From contig NC_013960.1 of NCBI RefSeq assembly GCF_000024725.1, forward strand, positions 1,262,261 through 1,326,260: a stretch of 64,000 bases of DNA. The letters run 5' to 3'. Of this stretch, positions 34,817 through 43,850 are shown piece after piece. The position numbers were made by a program, and so were the translations under genes. Each line of letters begins with the position of its first letter. The first letter of the stretch is position 1. The notes beneath the pieces were generated by a model, which saw nothing but the letters and a program-made list of their open reading frames with translations, ran no database searches and was not told where the DNA came from. The DNA comes from Nitrosococcus halophilus Nc 4 (lineage in GTDB: Bacteria; Pseudomonadota; Gammaproteobacteria; Nitrosococcales; Nitrosococcaceae).

Positions 34817-35076
34817 ATTCAATCACTCTAAGACATCGACTGCCCTAAGGTTACAAGTATGCCCTAGGGCCTTCTTCAATCAAGAGGGTTTTCTAGCTAA
34901 AGGCGCTGCGCAGGGAACGAGGCAGCTTAAAGCCAAAGAACCCTTTCCAATTTTAGTTCGCTAGCCTTTTATCCCTGGCCGATGCGCAGCGTATCTGAAA
35001 GCAAGCGGTAGGAATAAAAATCAGAGGTCGAACAGCTCAAAAGCATACGCCTATCCCCCCAAGAGCACAAGGGAAA

Positions 35077-35100
35077 AAAGTAGGTATTTCTACCTACTTT
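35077..35100 (-). terminator. Terminator of the hopanoid-phosphonate operon
   Basis: 10-bp arms AAAGTAGGTA and TACCTACTTT with a 4-nt loop, followed on the minus strand by a T-run (complement of A at 35074-35079). The stop codon of the last gene (TAG, 35094-35096) is inside the stem. Confidence 0.85.
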
Positions 35101-36170
35101 TGTTCTAATATTTTTTCAATAGTAGTGACAAAACGTTTCATGTCTTGTACGGATACAGCCCCCATGGTGGAGACCCGGAAGATTTGGGTTTCTAATCCTC
35201 CTTGTCCAGCGTAGATAACGAAGCCTTGGCGTTTGAGTTGGTCGTGCAATTCCTGGTAGTTGAGGGTTGCGGGTAAATGATAGGCCCGGAGGACACAGGA
35301 GGATGACTCCCGGGGCAGCAGGGATTCGATACCTAATGAGTTAAGTCCGTCAGCGACTAAATCAGCCAATTGGCGATAGTGTTCTCCACGGGCCTTCCAA
35401 TTGCCGTCCTCAGCCAGTTCACGGAGGGCTTCTAACAGCCCATAAAAAGATTGGACTGCGGGGGTGAAGGGAGTGCTTCGCCGATCCTGTTCCCGGCAGT
35501 AAACCGCAAGGTCTAAATAAAGACTGCGTTGGGGGGAGTTTGTGGGCAGGCTATCACGGCGCACCACGACAAAAGCAGCCCCGGGGATGCCATGCAAGCA
35601 TTTGTTGGCGGTAGCCGCCAAGGCGTTGATTCCCCAATTCTCGAAAGCCAGGGCTTCGGCACCGAAACTGCTGACACCATCGACGAGTAACTGGGTTTGG
35701 TGTTGGCGGCAAAGTGAGCCAATGGCTGCCAGATCGTTGAGACGCCCGGTGGTGGTTTCGTGGTGGACGACGGCCACGTGGGTGATGGCGGGATCCCCTT
35801 TGAGGGTTTGTTCCAGCCGCTGAATATCAATCTCCGCCCCCCAGCGATGGTGCAAGGTTCCATGAGCTATGCCGTAAATCTGGGCAATTTTAGAGAGTCG
35901 TTCCCCATAGACTCCATTTTCAATGACCAGCAATTTTCCTTGAGCGGGAACCAGACTACTCACCATGGCCTCCATTGCAGCGGTGCCGGAGCCACTTAAA
36001 AGCACGGCTGCCCAGCGCTCAGGATCAAGATCATAGAGGGCTAATAGTCGTTCTCGGATCTCGTCTTGCAAATCGGCAAACTCAGTTTCCCGGTGACAGA
36101 GATCGGGACCTAGCAAAGCGGCTCGCACCCGCTCGCTAAGATTAACGGGACCTGGATTAAGCAGAATCAT
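35094..36170 (-). CDS. phnW: 2-Aminoethylphosphonate-pyruvate transaminase
   Basis: This 358-residue fold-type I PLP aminotransferase matches PhnW/AEP transaminases: LNPGPVNLSERVRAALLGPD, HRETEF, the SGSGTAAMEAMVSSLVP phosphate-binding loop and the lysine in ATANKCLHGIPG. PhnW normally degrades AEP to phosphonoacetaldehyde. Placed here after PEP mutase and phosphonopyruvate decarboxylase, it most likely works in the synthetic direction to make AEP. It overlaps the upstream gene by 4 bp. It is the last gene of the operon. Confidence 0.9.
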   Translation of the reverse strand: MILLNPGPVNLSERVRAALLGPDLCHRETEFADLQDEIRERLLALYDLDPERWAAVLLSGSGTAAMEAMVSSLVPAQGKLLVIENGVYGERLSKIAQIYGIAHGTLHHRWGAEIDIQRLEQTLKGDPAITHVAVVHHETTTGRLNDLAAIGSLCRQHQTQLLVDGVSSFGAEALAFENWGINALAATANKCLHGIPGAAFVVVRRDSLPTNSPQRSLYLDLAVYCREQDRRSTPFTPAVQSFYGLLEALRELAEDGNWKARGEHYRQLADLVADGLNSLGIESLLPRESSSCVLRAYHLPATLNYQELHDQLKRQGFVIYAGQGGLETQIFRVSTMGAVSVQDMKRFVTTIEKILEQK

Positions 36171-37318
36171 GGAATCCTCACCAAGTGGGCTATTAACCGT
36201 TCTTTAGTCTCAGAGGGGGTAAGCTGGGGGCGGGGAAGATCCCGCGGAGCGCCCGGATGAATTTTGAGCTGGGCAAAACGGGGACCATTCTGGAGGGGGG
36301 CATTTAACAATTCCTCCAGTAATGCCACTTCATTTCCTTCTAGGGCCAGAGAATAGCCGCAGGCGCTGGCTACTTGGGCAAAGGAGAAGTTGCTGGAAAC
36401 CGTTGCTTGAGCCCCGGTGGAGTCATGGGCTTCATTGTCCAACAGCACATGGATAAAATTGGGGCCGCCATAAGTCCCCACCGTTGCCAAGTTGCCCATG
36501 CGCATCAATGCGGCGCCATCACCATCGATGACGACCACTCGTAGATCCGGGCGGGCAAGGGAGAGTCCCAGGCCCAGTGATGAGGCGCAGCCCATAGAGC
36601 CCACCATATAAAGCTGATTAGGGCGATCCTCCAGGGCACACAATTCTCGGCCGGTGTAGCCCGTGGTGGCAATGATCACGGTATTGTGCTCTGGCGTTCG
36701 AGAGAGGAGGTAGGTTAAGGCCTCAGTGCGGGAGGAAAGGGAAGTGGCCTGATAATGGCGGCGTAACAGGGGATTAGGGGAGGCCCGCTGGGGGACTTTG
36801 CTACCGCTGGAGCCATAGGGGGCCACAGAGCCTTTGCGCATAATAAAGGCATAGGGCCGTTTGGCGTTCTTTAAGTGCTGGCTGGCCCGCTCCAGAGCAG
36901 GGCGAATTTGGTCATTTTCCAGGGGAAAATACTCCCAGGGAATTTCCATGGTTTCCAGCAGCGATCCCGTTATCCGGCCCATGAGTTCATGTTGGGGTTC
37001 ATCCCCCAGTTCGGGATCCCCTCTCAGGGTAATAATGAGAAGCATAGGGATGCGGAAGGTGTAGGTCAGGGAGGTGAGTGGGTTGACCGCATTACCCAGG
37101 CCGGAATTTTGCATCATGGCGATAGCCGGTTGCCCTCCCAAATGGGCGCCGGCGGCTAGGGCCACGGCGTCACCTTCATTAGCTGAGGAAATATATCTTA
37201 AATCATTGCGCTCAATGACATAATTGATAAAAGGTGTGAGGAAAGAGCAGGGGACTCCCGCATAACAGCCAAACCCAAATTCACGGGCCCTGTCAATAAA
37301 TTGATGAGCTTCTATCAT
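36167..37318 (-). CDS. Phosphonopyruvate decarboxylase
   Basis: This 383-residue ThDP-dependent enzyme has an N-terminal pyrimidine-binding domain ([32 protein letters not shown] with the catalytic Glu) and a C-terminal ThDP/Mg domain ([20 protein letters not shown], the GDG-X-N signature). It converts phosphonopyruvate to phosphonoacetaldehyde, the irreversible step that pulls the PEP mutase equilibrium. It overlaps both neighbours by 4 bp, so the three genes are translationally coupled. Confidence 0.92.
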
Positions 37319-38988
37319 TGTTGGTGACCGTGGGCAAAATCGCCGGCGCGGGTCAGATCCTCCATATTATTTACGTCCAGCCAGTGGCCGTTAATGTAGA
37401 GAACCTTGATGGGATGGCCGCTGGCCACCAGATGATTCAGCAGATCCGGCATCCCCAGTTGGGGAAAATTCTCTTGTTGCCGCAATGCTTGGAGGCCCTT
37501 GAGCAGCCATTGGTGGCCCTCACCCGCCACGCGTACCATTCCGATCCAGCGGCCGCTGGGCCGCCCGTGGATTTTCTCTCTTTGGGTTTCAACCCGAAGC
37601 AGCTCCACATCCTGGCGGAACAAGGAGCGGTCATCCGGTTGGGAACAAAAGGCTGCGTCGCGGATATTCTCCCTTTTCCCAGGGGGCATGGCGGAGTCTA
37701 CTACCACTACAATGTTTCCAGGCATGTGACGCAGATCTCTTAAGATATAGCTGCGGAACAAGAGATCGCCATAGGTGATGATGGTATCCTCGGACAAGGC
37801 TTCAAGGGCGCAGGTGAGGGAGGAGAGCTCGCCGCTCAGGGCGTAGTCTGGATTATGGACCAGGGATATGCCCTTCACATCAATGGCTTCTGGTTTATAG
37901 CCCGTGACCGTGGTGATGTGATTGATGTTTTGACGCTTAAACTTATCTACCAGGCGGCGTAACAAGGGGACCCCAGCGACCGGTAACATGACCTTGGGGC
38001 GTTCCTGGGTCATACTTTCCAGTCCTTCCCCTCGGGTTGCCGCCAGGACAATAGCCCCGGTCTCGGCATCTGGTGACGCGGTGTAGCGGCGTTCAGCAGC
38101 GAGTAACTCTTCGGCCCCCTGGAGGCGGAAGATTTCACTGACTGGAGCCACTTGATCCTCAATGTTAACCAGGGTCTCAGTGCCATAAATTTCCCGCGCT
38201 ACCTCAGCCATCGCCGCCGCAGCGGCTCGGATTAAATGATTGGCCCAGATCACGACACTGATATCCGCCTTGCGGAATACCTCGGTGGGGGTACTGTAGT
38301 ATTTGGTGGGGACAATAATCAGTGGCGCCCGCCCCGCCCATTCCCGGGCAAAGGCCAGGATCTCATCGGCTTGGGACAGTTTACTATGGATCAAAATGGC
38401 GTCGGCGCCCGCCCCATGGTAGGCTTCGGCACGGCGCAAAGCTTCATCTAGGCCCCAACCCGCAATTAAGGCTTCGACTCGAGCCACAATGGAGAAATCC
38501 GGATCATTTTGGGAATCCTTGCCCGCCTTGATCTTACCGCAAAATTCATCCACATCAGCCAAGGGCTGGCGCTCACCGGAGATAAAGCTGTTGGTTTTAG
38601 GGAAGACTTTATCTTCAATACAAACCCCTGCAATCTCCCTTTGTTCTAGTTTCCTCACTAGTCGGCGCAAATTATTAAAATTTCCGTATCCCGTATCGCC
38701 GTCTAGGAGAATGGGAATGCGGGTGGCATCGGACATAAATTCCAGCATATCCACTATCTGGGTCCAACTGGCTTCATTATTGTCCCTCACCCCAAACTGG
38801 GAAGAAATAGCAAGACCACTGGCCCAAATTCCCTTAAATCCAGCTTCTTCAACAATGCGAGCACTCAGGCCATTGTGGGCTTCCATTAGAAATTCCGTTT
38901 GCTTGGATTCCAGTAAGTCGCGTAATTGGGCAAACTTTGACGGCTGGCGTTTCAGATCGGTAGTGGTGGGTAGGGGTACAGTACTCAT
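37315..38988 (-). CDS. PEP mutase fused to a nucleotidyltransferase domain
   Basis: This 557-residue fusion has residues about 15-300 as phosphoenolpyruvate phosphomutase: [20 protein letters not shown], then the signature [11 protein letters not shown], which forms the C-P bond of phosphonopyruvate. Residues about 315-557 form a nucleotidyltransferase domain ([14 protein letters not shown], then [20 protein letters not shown], with Asp-containing ITYGDLLF), resembling the cytidylyltransferases that activate 2-aminoethylphosphonate. Both catalytic domains look intact. The glycine-rich loop is slightly unusual (AATRGEG rather than AAGxGxR). The fusion suggests that carbon-phosphorus bond formation and headgroup activation are coupled. 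Confidence 0.9.
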
Positions 38989-39032
38989 AGGTTCAGGATT
39001 AGGGTTTTCCGTATCGAAGATTAATTTTTTAA

Positions 39033-39794
39033 CTATGATAACGGTGATGACTTGAGGGGTTCCAGTTGGGGCAAAATAATATTTTGGGCCTGGTGAATAT
39101 CTTCTGGAAAATCAATTTCTATCCAGGGTAAGCCGGTAATATCCTCAACCCCAAAGCGCTCTGGAGTTTCTAATAGAAGGTCCCGTATGGCCTCTTCATG
39201 GGGGGCCTCATGACGTGATTGGTCCATATAGTCTTGGCAGCGATCAGCGAGTCGATGGGCGACCTCTTCCGAGAAGCGAAAGAATCCCACCGATTCTCCA
39301 ATGATATCGTAGCGTAGTCCTGTGGGGACCTGTTTGCGAAATTCCACTAGAACTCCATTCCGAAGGCAGAGCTTGACGGGTTCTTCGCCGGGTTCCAAGT
39401 GGCGGTCGAGCAGGAAGCAATTTCTATGGGGGGATTGTAATAAGCGTTGCCCTAGGCGGTAGTCATAAAGGACATCCGCATCCATCAAGAAAATCTCTCC
39501 CCCGGCGCGTAGCTGATCCCGCAAAGTCCAGAGGCTGACAATGCTGCCTTGGTTAAAATCGGCGTTACATACAGTTTGAGGGCGGGGGAGGAAGATCAAG
39601 GTGTCCAGGGCTTGTTCCACCTGCTCAGCCTTATAGCCTACCGCAATGGCAATGTCTTGAACGCCTAGCTGAGTCAGAATAAGTAGATGGCGCTCAAGTA
39701 GGCTTTGACCTTCAAATTCCAACAGGCATTTGGGATGGTCATGGCTGTCTGCAAGGCGTTTACCTCTACCGGCGGCTAGAATAAGGGCACGCAT
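39033..39794 (-). CDS. Nucleotidyltransferase (sugar/alditol-phosphate type)
   Basis: This 253-residue protein starts with the signature [14 protein letters not shown], then [19 protein letters not shown] and a metal-binding [12 protein letters not shown]. It belongs to the NTP_transferase family. It lies 4 bp after hpnG and 44 bp before the PEP mutase fusion. It is the second nucleotidyltransferase in the operon, so one may act on AEP and the other on a different phosphorylated group. The substrate is unproven. Confidence 0.85.
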
Positions 39795-39798
39795 GGCT

Positions 39799-40569
39799 TT
39801 AGGGGGCGAGGAGGGTTGGACCCACCTGGGCCACTACGGTCTGCAAGGTAGCTCTTGCAGCCCGAAAATGCTTGGCCAGTTGCCACAGGCCGAGGACATC
39901 CCCGGGACGGGAGAACAGGCTTGCTAGCAGGGCCAACGGTTGCAGCCGACCTTGGGTATTCAGAGCGCTGAGGGCGGTAGCAGGCAGGGCAATTTGAGCC
40001 GGATCGGCGATTGCCCGGATCACCAAGAAGGGGACACCCGCCTGATTAGCCACCTTACCCACGGCGACACTTTCCATATCCACTGCCACGCATCCGCTGT
40101 GACGGTAGAGGCGGGCTTTTTCTTCCGGCGAGGAAAGAACGGTCTCTGTATGATGAAGTGGGGCACTGGAGAGGGTTAGCTTGTCCTCTAAGCGATCCAG
40201 AAGGCATTGCCGCCAGTGGGGATCAACCCAGTATTCTTCTCCCTCTAGGTATTGCACTCGCTGGGGCAAGAGCAGGACTCCCGCTTCCAAATGAGGTGCC
40301 AGCCCGCCGGCGACGCCCCAGCTGATTAAAGCCTGGGCGCCTGTAGACAAGAGGTTTTCAGCAGCCCGGCGAGCATGCTCAGGGCCGATACCAGACAGCT
40401 GTAAGCGAAGCGCACCGGCCAAGGAGACATCACTGCCAGGGCGCAGCTTCTGCTTGGTCAGGCAACGCCCTTCCGCAGGTAAGGCTGCCACCACACCGGC
40501 TCGAATGAAAGGTAATGGCGGTGCCATTGCCGCTTGGTTGACTCCACTGCCAGAACCGAGGATCAACAC
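39799..40569 (-). CDS. hpnG: Hopanoid-associated nucleosidase/phosphorylase HpnG
   Basis: This 256-residue protein has the nucleoside phosphorylase fold: VVAALPAEGRCL, SGIGPEHARRAAENLLSTGA, SWGVAGGLAPHLEAG and VAVDMESVAVGKVA with the purine-binding DMES motif. HpnG removes adenine from adenosylhopane to give ribosylhopane in extended (C35) hopanoid synthesis. It overlaps shc by 7 bp. HpnH, which makes its substrate, is not in this window. Confidence 0.87.
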   Translation of the reverse strand: MLILGSGSGVNQAAMAPPLPFIRAGVVAALPAEGRCLTKQKLRPGSDVSLAGALRLQLSGIGPEHARRAAENLLSTGAQALISWGVAGGLAPHLEAGVLLLPQRVQYLEGEEYWVDPHWRQCLLDRLEDKLTLSSAPLHHTETVLSSPEEKARLYRHSGCVAVDMESVAVGKVANQAGVPFLVIRAIADPAQIALPATALSALNTQGRLQPLALLASLFSRPGDVLGLWQLAKHFRAARATLQTVVAQVGPTLLAP

Positions 40570-42542
40570 TGGCGATTGAGATGGTTACGGTATCGGGCTA
40601 GGGCCCAGAGGGGAAAAAATTTATCATAGCCATGGTACTTAAGATAAAACACCCGGGGAAACCCAGGGGCGTTAAAAGCGGGATGATCCCATAATCCGTC
40701 TCCTTGCTGGGTTTGCAGGAGGTAGATAATGCCTTGCTTAACTGATTCGCTGTCTGCTTCTCCGGCGGCCATTAGGGCAAGCAGGGCCCAAGCGGTATGC
40801 ACGGGGGTGCTTTCCTGATAGCGGCCAGCCAGGGAGGAGTCAAAATAAGAATAGTTGTCTTCCCCCCAGCCTCCATCTGAACGTTGGACCTGCTTCAGCC
40901 AGTCCACCGCCTTGCGAATAAAACTTTCTTGGGGATCAAAGCCCGCCTGTTCCAGGGCCGTCAGCACCGACCAAGTCCCATAAATATAATTGGTTCCCCA
41001 ACGCCCGAACCAGGAACCATTGGACTCTTGCTCTTGGCGCAGATAGTCCAGGGTCCGCTTTAGGGATTGGGCGTATTGGGGCTGGTTTAAACGTCCTAGC
41101 AGCGCCACACAACGGGCGCTGACATCCGCAGTGGGCGGGTCCAGCAGAGCCCCGTGATCAGCAAAGGGGATTTCATTTAAGTAATAATAAGTATTGTCGG
41201 AATCAAAGGCGGCAAACCCACCATTACGGGATTGCATCCCACAGAGCCAATCGCAGGCCCGCTGGATGGATTCTCCGTAGTGCTCCGGTGCTGCTGCTTG
41301 ATCCATCGCCCAGGCCACCACCGCAGTATCATCTAGGTCTGGATAATAACTGTTGTTGTACTGAAAAGCCCAGCCCCCCCCTTTGAGATGGGGGTGTTGT
41401 TTTTGCCAATCTCCGGGCTGTTCTAAGATTTGCCGCTCCTTGAGCCAGTCAAGGGCACGGATGACCGGTGCAGTGGTATGTCCTCCTTCGGTTTCTTGGA
41501 GCGCTAAGGAAGCCAGGCCCGTGTCCCAAACGGGTGATAGACAGGGTTGACAGTAAGCTGAATCTCCCTCATCCACGAGCAGGTTCTGAATTGCTTTTTT
41601 AGCTTGGACCCGCAAGGGATGGTCAGGACCGTAACCCATCAGGATCAGTGCCTCATGGGCATTGACCATGGCGGGGAAAATGCCGCCGAGGCCATCTTCA
41701 CCATTTAAGCGAGCGGTGAACCAGGTTTCCGCTTTTTTCATGGCATGGCGCCGCAGGGCTGAGGGGATAAGCGGTTCCAGCAAACGGGCCGTACGCTCCA
41801 CATAAAGCAAAACCTTATTGAGGCGCGAGCGGATGGGAAAATAGTGACGTTCCTGCTCTGGCGGGGTAACAAACAGTTCTTGAATATGCACATCCCGGGG
41901 GTTTTGGGCCTGCCCTTTCAAGCTGTAGAGGATGGACAAGGGCACCATAACTGTCCGCGACCAGTAGGAAACCTTATTCAAATGGAAGGGAAACCAGCTT
42001 GGCAAGAGCATGATTTCCACAGGGATAAAGGGGACTCCACGCCAGGGGATCTGAGCAAACATGGCCAGCGCAAGGCGGGTAAAGACATTAGACTGGGCGG
42101 CGCCTCCCCGGGCCAGGATGGCTTCGCGGGCTCGGACCATATGAGGCGCGCTAGGATCATCACCAGCCAGTTTGAGAGCATAATAGACTTTTACGGAGCA
42201 GCTGATATCCAAATCGCCCCCCTCGTAAAGGGGCCAGCCCCCATGGTCGGCTTGCTTAGCCCGTAAACGAGCGGCCAGTTTGCGCTCGATTTCAGGTTCC
42301 AACTCGCCCGTAAAATGGGTCCAGAGAATATATTCAGCGGGGATAGTGCCATCCGCTTCCAGCACAAAGCACCAATGGCCATCCGCGTGCTGTAACTTGA
42401 GCAAGGCGTCCCGAGCAGCGGTGATGGCTGCACTGAGTTCAGTACGGTGAATACCTTGAGGTAAGGCTTCGGTTGCCGGAGAAGCGGCGGCGATGTCTAC
42501 GGCGCCGGCGGATTCCGGAGCTTGTCGAAGTGCACGGGTCAT
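40563..42542 (-). CDS. shc: Squalene-hopene cyclase
   Basis: This 659-residue class II triterpene cyclase converts squalene to hopene/diplopterol at the membrane. The acid motif is PDLDDTAVVAWA (DXDD). Multiple QW repeats are visible (for example GGWGEDNYSYFD, NGSWFGRWG, GDGLWDHPAF). Length matches bacterial SHCs. It follows squalene synthase by 33 bp. It has a proline/alanine-rich N-terminal extension before the first helical repeat. Intact. Confidence 0.96.
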   Translation of the reverse strand: MTRALRQAPESAGAVDIAAASPATEALPQGIHRTELSAAITAARDALLKLQHADGHWCFVLEADGTIPAEYILWTHFTGELEPEIERKLAARLRAKQADHGGWPLYEGGDLDISCSVKVYYALKLAGDDPSAPHMVRAREAILARGGAAQSNVFTRLALAMFAQIPWRGVPFIPVEIMLLPSWFPFHLNKVSYWSRTVMVPLSILYSLKGQAQNPRDVHIQELFVTPPEQERHYFPIRSRLNKVLLYVERTARLLEPLIPSALRRHAMKKAETWFTARLNGEDGLGGIFPAMVNAHEALILMGYGPDHPLRVQAKKAIQNLLVDEGDSAYCQPCLSPVWDTGLASLALQETEGGHTTAPVIRALDWLKERQILEQPGDWQKQHPHLKGGGWAFQYNNSYYPDLDDTAVVAWAMDQAAAPEHYGESIQRACDWLCGMQSRNGGFAAFDSDNTYYYLNEIPFADHGALLDPPTADVSARCVALLGRLNQPQYAQSLKRTLDYLRQEQESNGSWFGRWGTNYIYGTWSVLTALEQAGFDPQESFIRKAVDWLKQVQRSDGGWGEDNYSYFDSSLAGRYQESTPVHTAWALLALMAAGEADSESVKQGIIYLLQTQQGDGLWDHPAFNAPGFPRVFYLKYHGYDKFFPLWALARYRNHLNRQC

Positions 42543-42575
42543 AGTGAGATCCCCTCGCGTTTAATCCCATCAGGC

Positions 42576-43676
42576 CTATTTTTCTGGCGATGCTTGCAGT
42601 ACAGGTGTTGCTTTGCTGTCGTTTCTGGTTGCCTCTAGTGGTATAAAAGGCACACCTTTCGCTGCAAGATTAAATAGGAATGTTAATACCTTATCGTGAC
42701 TTGCTGCAATACTTGTTAAGATTATTGTTGTTTTTACGCTACGGCGAGAGATCTTGACCTGTTGGCTAGCTGAAAAATCCCGGTGCCGGTGTAGTTTGCG
42801 CAAAGTGAGAATGGCCATGCCAATGGCCCAGAGGCAAAAACGCCGGATACCGACCTCATTGGGTGGAATTAGCAGGGTATAGGTTAAGGCATTGCGGAGG
42901 TGGGCATGGGCAATACCAATAAGGTGTTGCAGGCCGTCACCAAAGGCCGGTTGATAGTGGCCTGGTGTGAGTTTATCCAAATCAAAACCCGTTTGCTCAA
43001 AGATACTGCGTGGCAGCCAGCAGATTTCCCTTTTCCGATCATCCCAGATATCCTTGAGGATGTTGGTCATCTGTAAACCTTGGCCGAAAGAGATCATCAG
43101 ACTGTGGAGGGCTTCCCGGTTGCGGTTGGCCCCGGGGGAATAGTCGCAGAAAAGCTCCGTCAGCATTTCCCCCACTACGCCAGCGACGAAGTAGCAGTAC
43201 CGGTCCATGGTTTCCATATCGGCTAGGCCCCGCAGGCTGGCGGTATTCTGAAAGCGGGGCATACCGTCGCACATAATGCGCACGCAACGCTCAAGGGCGG
43301 CCCGTTGGCGGGGAGTAAAGCTATGGGTGATCCGGATGATCCTCGGCGTATTTTGAATAAGTTCCCGCTCCGTGGCCAGGGTATGTTCGGAGAGCAGGGG
43401 GTATAGGGCCCGGGCAAAGAATTTAGCCGAGGCTTGCCCCGCGACGACGGCAATAAAGGTGTTGGAGAAAAATTTCTTTTGATCGATGCTTAGGCTGGGT
43501 TCGTCCTCAATAGTATCGGCGATGCGGCACAGCAGATAGCCGTTGGCCACCACCTCTTGCAGCTTCGGGGGAAGCTGGGGGATGGTGAGTGCGAACGTGC
43601 GGGAGACGCCAGGAAGGATATAATCCTGGTAGGCCTTGTCGATAGAATAGCAACTTATATTATAAGAGCCCATCAT
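42576..43676 (-). CDS. Squalene synthase (single-enzyme type)
   Basis: This 366-residue squalene/phytoene synthase family protein has both aspartate-rich motifs: RIADTIEDE and ILKDIWDDRKRE. The block YCYFVAGVVGEMLTELF and the N-terminal SRTFALTIPQLPPKL resemble the eukaryote-like squalene synthase that converts farnesyl diphosphate directly to squalene with NADPH, rather than the three-enzyme HpnCDE route; no hpnC, hpnE or second synthase is in the operon. It is the first gene of the seven-gene operon. ATG at 43676, near GAAAGGAGG on the opposite side of the start, so the ribosome site is not obvious. Confidence 0.88.
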   Translation of the reverse strand: MMGSYNISCYSIDKAYQDYILPGVSRTFALTIPQLPPKLQEVVANGYLLCRIADTIEDEPSLSIDQKKFFSNTFIAVVAGQASAKFFARALYPLLSEHTLATERELIQNTPRIIRITHSFTPRQRAALERCVRIMCDGMPRFQNTASLRGLADMETMDRYCYFVAGVVGEMLTELFCDYSPGANRNREALHSLMISFGQGLQMTNILKDIWDDRKREICWLPRSIFEQTGFDLDKLTPGHYQPAFGDGLQHLIGIAHAHLRNALTYTLLIPPNEVGIRRFCLWAIGMAILTLRKLHRHRDFSASQQVKISRRSVKTTIILTSIAASHDKVLTFLFNLAAKGVPFIPLEATRNDSKATPVLQASPEK

Positions 43677-43850
43677 TTTTGAAAGGAGGCGCCGTTGTTT
43701 TCCTAATTTAAGCGCACATTAGGATATTATTATGAGTTACTGTGAGGCCTAATATTACCGGAACCACCGTATTAGCGGAACCGCAATGCCGCGTCTCCAT
43801 GGTGGGCATTATCTGAAGTAGTCTTTTAGTCTCAACTATATACTTTAATA

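Follow-up and report, generated by a model that had tools for sequence, protein, structure and literature searches.

Gene content and organization of the locus

The window analyzed here is the whole 64,000-nt stretch of Nitrosococcus halophilus Nc 4 under study (GCF_000024725.1, NC_013960.1, positions 1,262,261-1,326,260; G000:C2:1262261-1326260 in our numbering), from a genome of two contigs with a chromosome of 4,079,427 bases. Seven open reading frames, all open, form a predicted operon on its minus strand from 43676 to 35094, encoding in this order a squalene synthase-like protein (SQS), squalene-hopene cyclase (SHC), HpnG, a standalone cytidylyltransferase candidate, a phosphoenolpyruvate (PEP) mutase fusion (PepM), phosphonopyruvate decarboxylase (Ppd) and 2-aminoethylphosphonate transaminase (AEPT) (Table 1). 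The junctions from SQS to AEPT measure +33, -7, +4, +44, -4 and -4 bp, and a strong terminator lies directly 3' of AEPT, the last gene. The first-pass annotation had described seven minus-strand genes with tiny gaps or overlaps ending in one terminator, and all seven reading frames were recovered where it had placed them. The best promoter-like match is the sigma-70-like site upstream of SQS, read from 43835 to 43808, and the frequency of such sites is not above that in shuffles. An Rfam search of the 64,000-nt window gave no match.

The enzyme calls made at first reading all hold. SHC, HpnG, PepM, Ppd and AEPT were scored against the NCBIfam curated cut-offs and all five pass; the call for SQS holds at the level of the PF00494 family, where its membership is solid, its TIGR01559 score (112 bits) being under the equivalog cut-off. 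The EDKxxxxxNS signature is present in PepM, SHC is single copy in the genome, and HpnG presumably converts adenosylhopane to ribosylhopane, as is assumed for its family. SQS, SHC and HpnG are common to the operon and to hpn clusters, whereas HpnH, HpnB, HpnM, HpnN and HpnL are encoded elsewhere in this genome. HpnL scores 397 bits with TIGR03476; the other four were called from sequence at C2:1.231-1.237 Mb, and queries from this region match genes that are annotated as hpnH, MMPL and glycosyltransferase within an hpn locus.

Table 1. Features of the seven-gene operon and its ends (window coordinates).
Feature	Position	Strand	Score or basis
Squalene synthase-like (SQS_PSY family), operon gene 1	42576-43676	-	PF00494, 194 bits
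Squalene-hopene cyclase (SHC)	40563-42542	-	TIGR01507, 844 bits (cut-off 431)
HpnG, hopanoid-associated phosphorylase	39799-40569	-	TIGR03468, 222 bits (cut-off 187)
Standalone nucleotidyltransferase, predicted AEP cytidylyltransferase (PntC-like)	39033-39794	-	PF12804; PntC fold match
PEP mutase (PepM) with C-terminal MobA-like domain	37315-38988	-	TIGR02320, 402 bits (cut-off 320)
Phosphonopyruvate decarboxylase (Ppd/AepY)	36167-37318	-	TIGR03297, 473 bits (cut-off 313)
2-Aminoethylphosphonate transaminase (AEPT)	35094-36170	-	TIGR03301, 446 bits (cut-off 361)
Rho-independent terminator: 11-bp stem, tetraloop, U run	35076-35101	-	-14.2 kcal/mol, z -4.1
Sigma-70-like site upstream of SQS	43808-43835	-	10/12 matches; weak, not above chance

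Conservation of the operon in Nitrosococcaceae

All seven genes occur in identical order and strand in G001, G002, G003 and G005, of which three belong to the genus and one to a second genus, and the order is thus kept in 5/5 PepM-bearing Nitrosococcaceae. Adjacency of hpnG and pepM in related genera had been named beforehand as a check on the first-pass annotation, and the same seven-gene order in the second genus bears it out. The sixth genome of the family, G004, retains SQS-SHC-HpnG together with a 73% identical Ppd; a search of this locus found neither PepM nor the cytidylyltransferase nor AEPT, and between HpnG and Ppd relics of PepM or the cytidylyltransferase were likewise not detected. 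The persisting Ppd gene of G004 is full-length (L058 11466-12620, plus strand).

Predicted synthesis and activation of 2-aminoethylphosphonate

Judging from their families, PepM would convert PEP to phosphonopyruvate, Ppd would yield phosphonoacetaldehyde from it, and AEPT would form 2-aminoethylphosphonate (AEP), so that synthesis of AEP by the enzymes of the operon is almost certain. The standalone cytidylyltransferase would then turn AEP into CMP-AEP, which gives the operon the same four steps to CMP-AEP as the Pnt pathway of Ppm, Ppd, AEPT and PntC (Rice 2019, PMC6697681). PntC makes CMP-AEP in that pathway, and mutagenesis showed that its Arg15, Lys25 and Lys153 matter (Rice 2019, PMC6697681).

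Both the standalone protein and the C-terminal domain of PepM were considered for the activation step. The model of the standalone protein (pLDDT 94) has PntC (6PD2/6PD1) as its top seven PDB fold matches, with a TM of 0.83, and its R13, K22 and K154 are the equivalents of R15, K25 and K153 of Tde-PntC and are invariant in 34 homologs. The GxGxR..PK signature is found in 64/64 standalone homologs and in 0/92 PepM-fused domains, its Arg being absent from the C-terminal domain of the window PepM and from those of 91 other fusions. Since the signature is lost in the fused domain and kept in the standalone protein, we ascribe the formation of CMP-AEP, with high confidence, to the standalone protein, and disfavor the fused domain, which has lost the signature Arg in 92 of 92 cases, as an AEP cytidylyltransferase. 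The pathway does not need the signature in the fused domain because the standalone gene carries it. The fused domain may instead have a structural or regulatory role or a different specificity, and perhaps is no cytidylyltransferase at all. The nucleotide activation of AEP suggested earlier is therefore supported, with the correction that the likely cytidylyltransferase is the standalone protein and that the PepM-fused domain is without the signature Arg.

Linkage of PepM and hopanoid genes in other lineages

We scanned the neighbors of the 80 closest PepM-fusion loci among genome contigs. Gammaproteobacterial MAGs, cyanobacteria and some Burkholderiaceae have close relatives of the window PepM within a hopanoid cluster or next to one, and Roseomonas has a more distant PepM in such a position; the linkage that the first-pass annotation expected to be conserved in relatives thus reaches other classes and cyanobacteria. 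Hopanoid genes sit beside the module in 12/17 gammaproteobacterial MAG loci, and four of the five MAG loci without them are on contigs of 3.5-10.3 kb. One example, at L147, reads SQS-SHC-HpnG-HpnN-HpnL-[cytidylyltransferase-PepM-Ppd-AEPT]-HpnH-HpnB-HpnM. HpnH or HpnI/J/K adjoin the module in 5/14 cyanobacterial loci, and Calothrix HK-06 (L155) has a CDP-alcohol phosphotransferase (CDP-AP), an oxygenase, cytidylyltransferase, PepM, Ppd, AEPT, HpnJ, HpnK and HpnI. Among the loci of Burkholderiaceae and two MAGs, an HpnL-family gene is beside the module in 25/49, whereas in the other 24, which are mostly from Paraburkholderia, the flank scanned contains neither HpnL nor any hopanoid gene, and this counts against a link of the module to hopanoids. 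G360, a genome that groups with Paraburkholderia, has its CDP-AP/HpnL/cytidylyltransferase block (L130) on contig 4 and its PepM/Ppd/AEPT block (L061) on contig 5.

Hopanoid-phosphonate superclusters with both CDP-AP and an HpnL-type gene are present in Mycetohabitans rhizoxinica and Roseomonas marmotae, the latter carrying the full set on plasmid p1318-3. The Roseomonas PepM is about 52% identical to that of the window, and the HpnL-like gene there overlaps Ppd and AEPT. In a PepM tree (FastTree, some forks weak) the window gene groups with those of Nitrosococcaceae, and these fall within a clade that they share with sequences from gammaproteobacteria, cyanobacteria and Burkholderiaceae. Compared with the window, cyanobacteria have a distant version of SHC (about 40% identity) and a close PepM (about 66%), and from this difference between the sequences it is most likely that the phosphonate module joined a pre-existing hopanoid background there.

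The two halves of the operon might share one transcript and be biochemically unconnected, their adjacency being a frozen chance inherited in one family. The survival of the hopanoid half in G004 in the absence of pepM, the cytidylyltransferase and AEPT indicates that the halves are separable, as this explanation would have it; however, the recurrence of the linkage in differing arrangements in gammaproteobacteria, cyanobacteria, Burkholderiaceae and Roseomonas, and the three-way co-occurrence with CDP-AP presented below, make it improbable.

A candidate transferase and its genomic distribution

The operon was correctly described at first reading as containing no transferase; a candidate CDP-AP is encoded elsewhere in the same genome and within the cluster in relatives (e.g. 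L059 8483-9163), and genes so annotated are present in the R. marmotae and M. rhizoxinica clusters. The source genome has one ortholog, at C2:473706-474326, which scores 285 bits on the family profile; its other CDP-AP genes, like all others in the Nitrosococcaceae, reach at most 34 bits and were rejected as the transferase. The position of this gene outside the Nitrosococcus operon counts against a role in decorating hopanoids. In G001 and G005 the ortholog adjoins a ubiD-like gene. It is present in 5/5 PepM-bearing Nitrosococcaceae and was not found in the PepM-less G004.

The DxxDGxxAR(x8)GxxxDxxxD motif is intact in 43/43 CDP-AP sequences. The model of the protein (pLDDT 91.5) matches the folds of AF2299, IPCT-DIPPS, PIP synthase and, at lower rank, CEPT1, and the candidate has both fold and catalytic motif in common with IPCT-DIPPS and AF2299. 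The substrates of DIPPS are CDP-inositol and inositol phosphate, whereas for the candidate we propose CMP-AEP as donor and a hopanoid as acceptor. The CDP-AP is probably the missing transferase for AEP.

SHC is present in 34/36 genomes of the PepM clade, both misses being MAG assemblies, and in 49/398 genomes of the phylum, for which an even sample of 398 genomes served as background. PepM fusions occur in 11/398 genomes, 7 of the 11 with SHC (one-sided Fisher p 6e-5; the genomes are related and p-values overstate independence). CDP-AP matches (E<1e-25) were obtained in 7/398 genomes, exactly the seven in which SHC and a PepM fusion coexist. The remaining four genomes with a PepM fusion, three of them of one genus, have no SHC and gave no CDP-AP match in this sample.

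In Burkholderiaceae, and in some cyanobacteria and some MAGs, the module is joined by a HalD/BesD-like 2OG-Fe oxygenase (e.g. L059 7633-8445, minus strand), which may hydroxylate AEP or the lipid. In Pandoraea this oxygenase is fused to CDP-AP (L180 6696-8192, L216 6678-8192, L222 6717-8192), and in other Burkholderiaceae it is a separate gene. A search of Nitrosococcaceae for this oxygenase gave no match, so that the Nitrosococcus set lacks this component of the cluster found in relatives.

Proposed product and acceptor of AEP

Hopene would be formed by SQS and SHC, and a C35 hydroxylated side chain would be provided by HpnH, encoded elsewhere, together with HpnG. CDP-AP would then transfer AEP from CMP-AEP to the hopanoid hydroxyl with release of CMP, and the product would be a zwitterionic phosphonohopanoid that HpnL may flip and HpnN may carry to the outer membrane. 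HpnL is one member of a broader superfamily of flippase-like proteins, and its presence alone is therefore weak evidence. We lean toward an operon that makes a hopanoid and the activated phosphonate head group for that same hopanoid, and lean to the same degree toward the hopanoid as the acceptor of AEP. Computed support for the proposal comes from the gene identities, the conserved order and linkage, the co-occurrence and the intact active-site motifs; we infer the enzyme activities from the protein families, and likewise the function of CDP-AP as transferase, the hopanoid acceptor and the flippase role.

Glycerolipids are common substrates of CDP-alcohol phosphotransferases, so diacylglycerol could be the acceptor. 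Transfer from CMP-AEP would then give an AEP phosphonolipid analogous to phosphatidylethanolamine, co-produced with hopanoids since the two adjust the same membrane. Diacylglycerol is a known acceptor of aminophosphotransfer from CDP-alcohols, and the lower-ranked fold match to eukaryotic CEPT1 also speaks for this reading. A diacylglycerol acceptor, however, does not need SHC, and every genome in which CDP-AP was found has SHC, the four SHC-less PepM-fusion genomes giving no match; moreover, the linked genes are those of hopanoid tailoring (HpnH, HpnG, HpnI/J/K, HpnN, HpnM). We thus regard the glycerolipid as rather unlikely and prefer the hopanoid, mainly because CDP-AP is limited to genomes with PepM fusion and SHC in the 398-genome sample.

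AEP could also be placed on a surface glycan, as proposed for most nucleotidyl-activated phosphonates, giving a phosphonoglycan whose hopanoid neighbors reflect shared regulation only. Bacterial phosphonate capacity serves mostly cell-surface tailoring, and the Pnt pathways sit with LicD-like or glycosyltransferase genes (Rice 2019, PMC6697681), whereas the companions here are hopanoid and CDP-AP genes. The six Nitrosococcaceae genomes gave no LicD-family transferase, by which LicD transfer to a glycan was rejected for this family, the operon is without a sugar or capsule gene, and the conserved partners are lipid genes; decoration of a glycan is accordingly very improbable.

Returning to the hopanoid acceptor, we give about even chances to the broader idea that aminoethylphosphono-hopanoids are a new lipid class, made via CMP-AEP and a dedicated CDP-AP with HpnL as flippase, in several lineages, namely ammonia-oxidizing and other Gammaproteobacteria, heterocystous cyanobacteria, Burkholderiaceae and Acetobacteraceae.

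Relation to known systems

Hybrid clusters of SHC and PEP mutase have been noted in Roseomonas, where an undiscovered terpene-phosphonate was proposed (Guzman and Vilcinskas 2021, PMC8776678), and they link the same two pathways as the Nitrosococcus operon. The paper deals with Acetobacteraceae only, and its accessible part does not name the cytidylyltransferase, transferase, flippase, co-occurrence or mechanism. Our search of the openly accessible literature on PepM, AEP, phosphonate or phosphonolipid with hopanoids returned only this Roseomonas remark and no phosphonohopanoid structure, the latter counting against the proposal, and the accessible part of a study of cyanobacterial co-occurrence modules does not report a PepM-hopanoid link (PMC5862535). 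The locus can be described as an hpn cluster to which a phosphonate module for a proposed head group is added, the SHC-PepM linkage itself having already been noted in Roseomonas.

If the proposal is true, it would supply a defined set of genes, and a product that can be tested, for a type of hopanoid head group so far undescribed. It would also suggest what HpnL, an orphan membrane protein, does in the cell and give a biological use to many PepM genes not yet tied to a product. Hopanoids are geological biomarkers and phosphonates make up a notable share of marine dissolved organic phosphorus, and a lipid joining the two would therefore bear on the environmental reading of both.

The known polar head groups of hopanoids are of the sugar, amine or cyclitol type, and to our knowledge none carries a phosphonate. 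A cluster without PepM in G162 (L226 2316-14869) contains SHC-HpnG-HpnN-HpnL and, after them, genes for a protein of 434 aa that has a CDP-alcohol phosphotransferase domain, for a probable inositol phosphate synthase and for a nucleotidyltransferase; the same scheme of head-group attachment may operate there with inositol.
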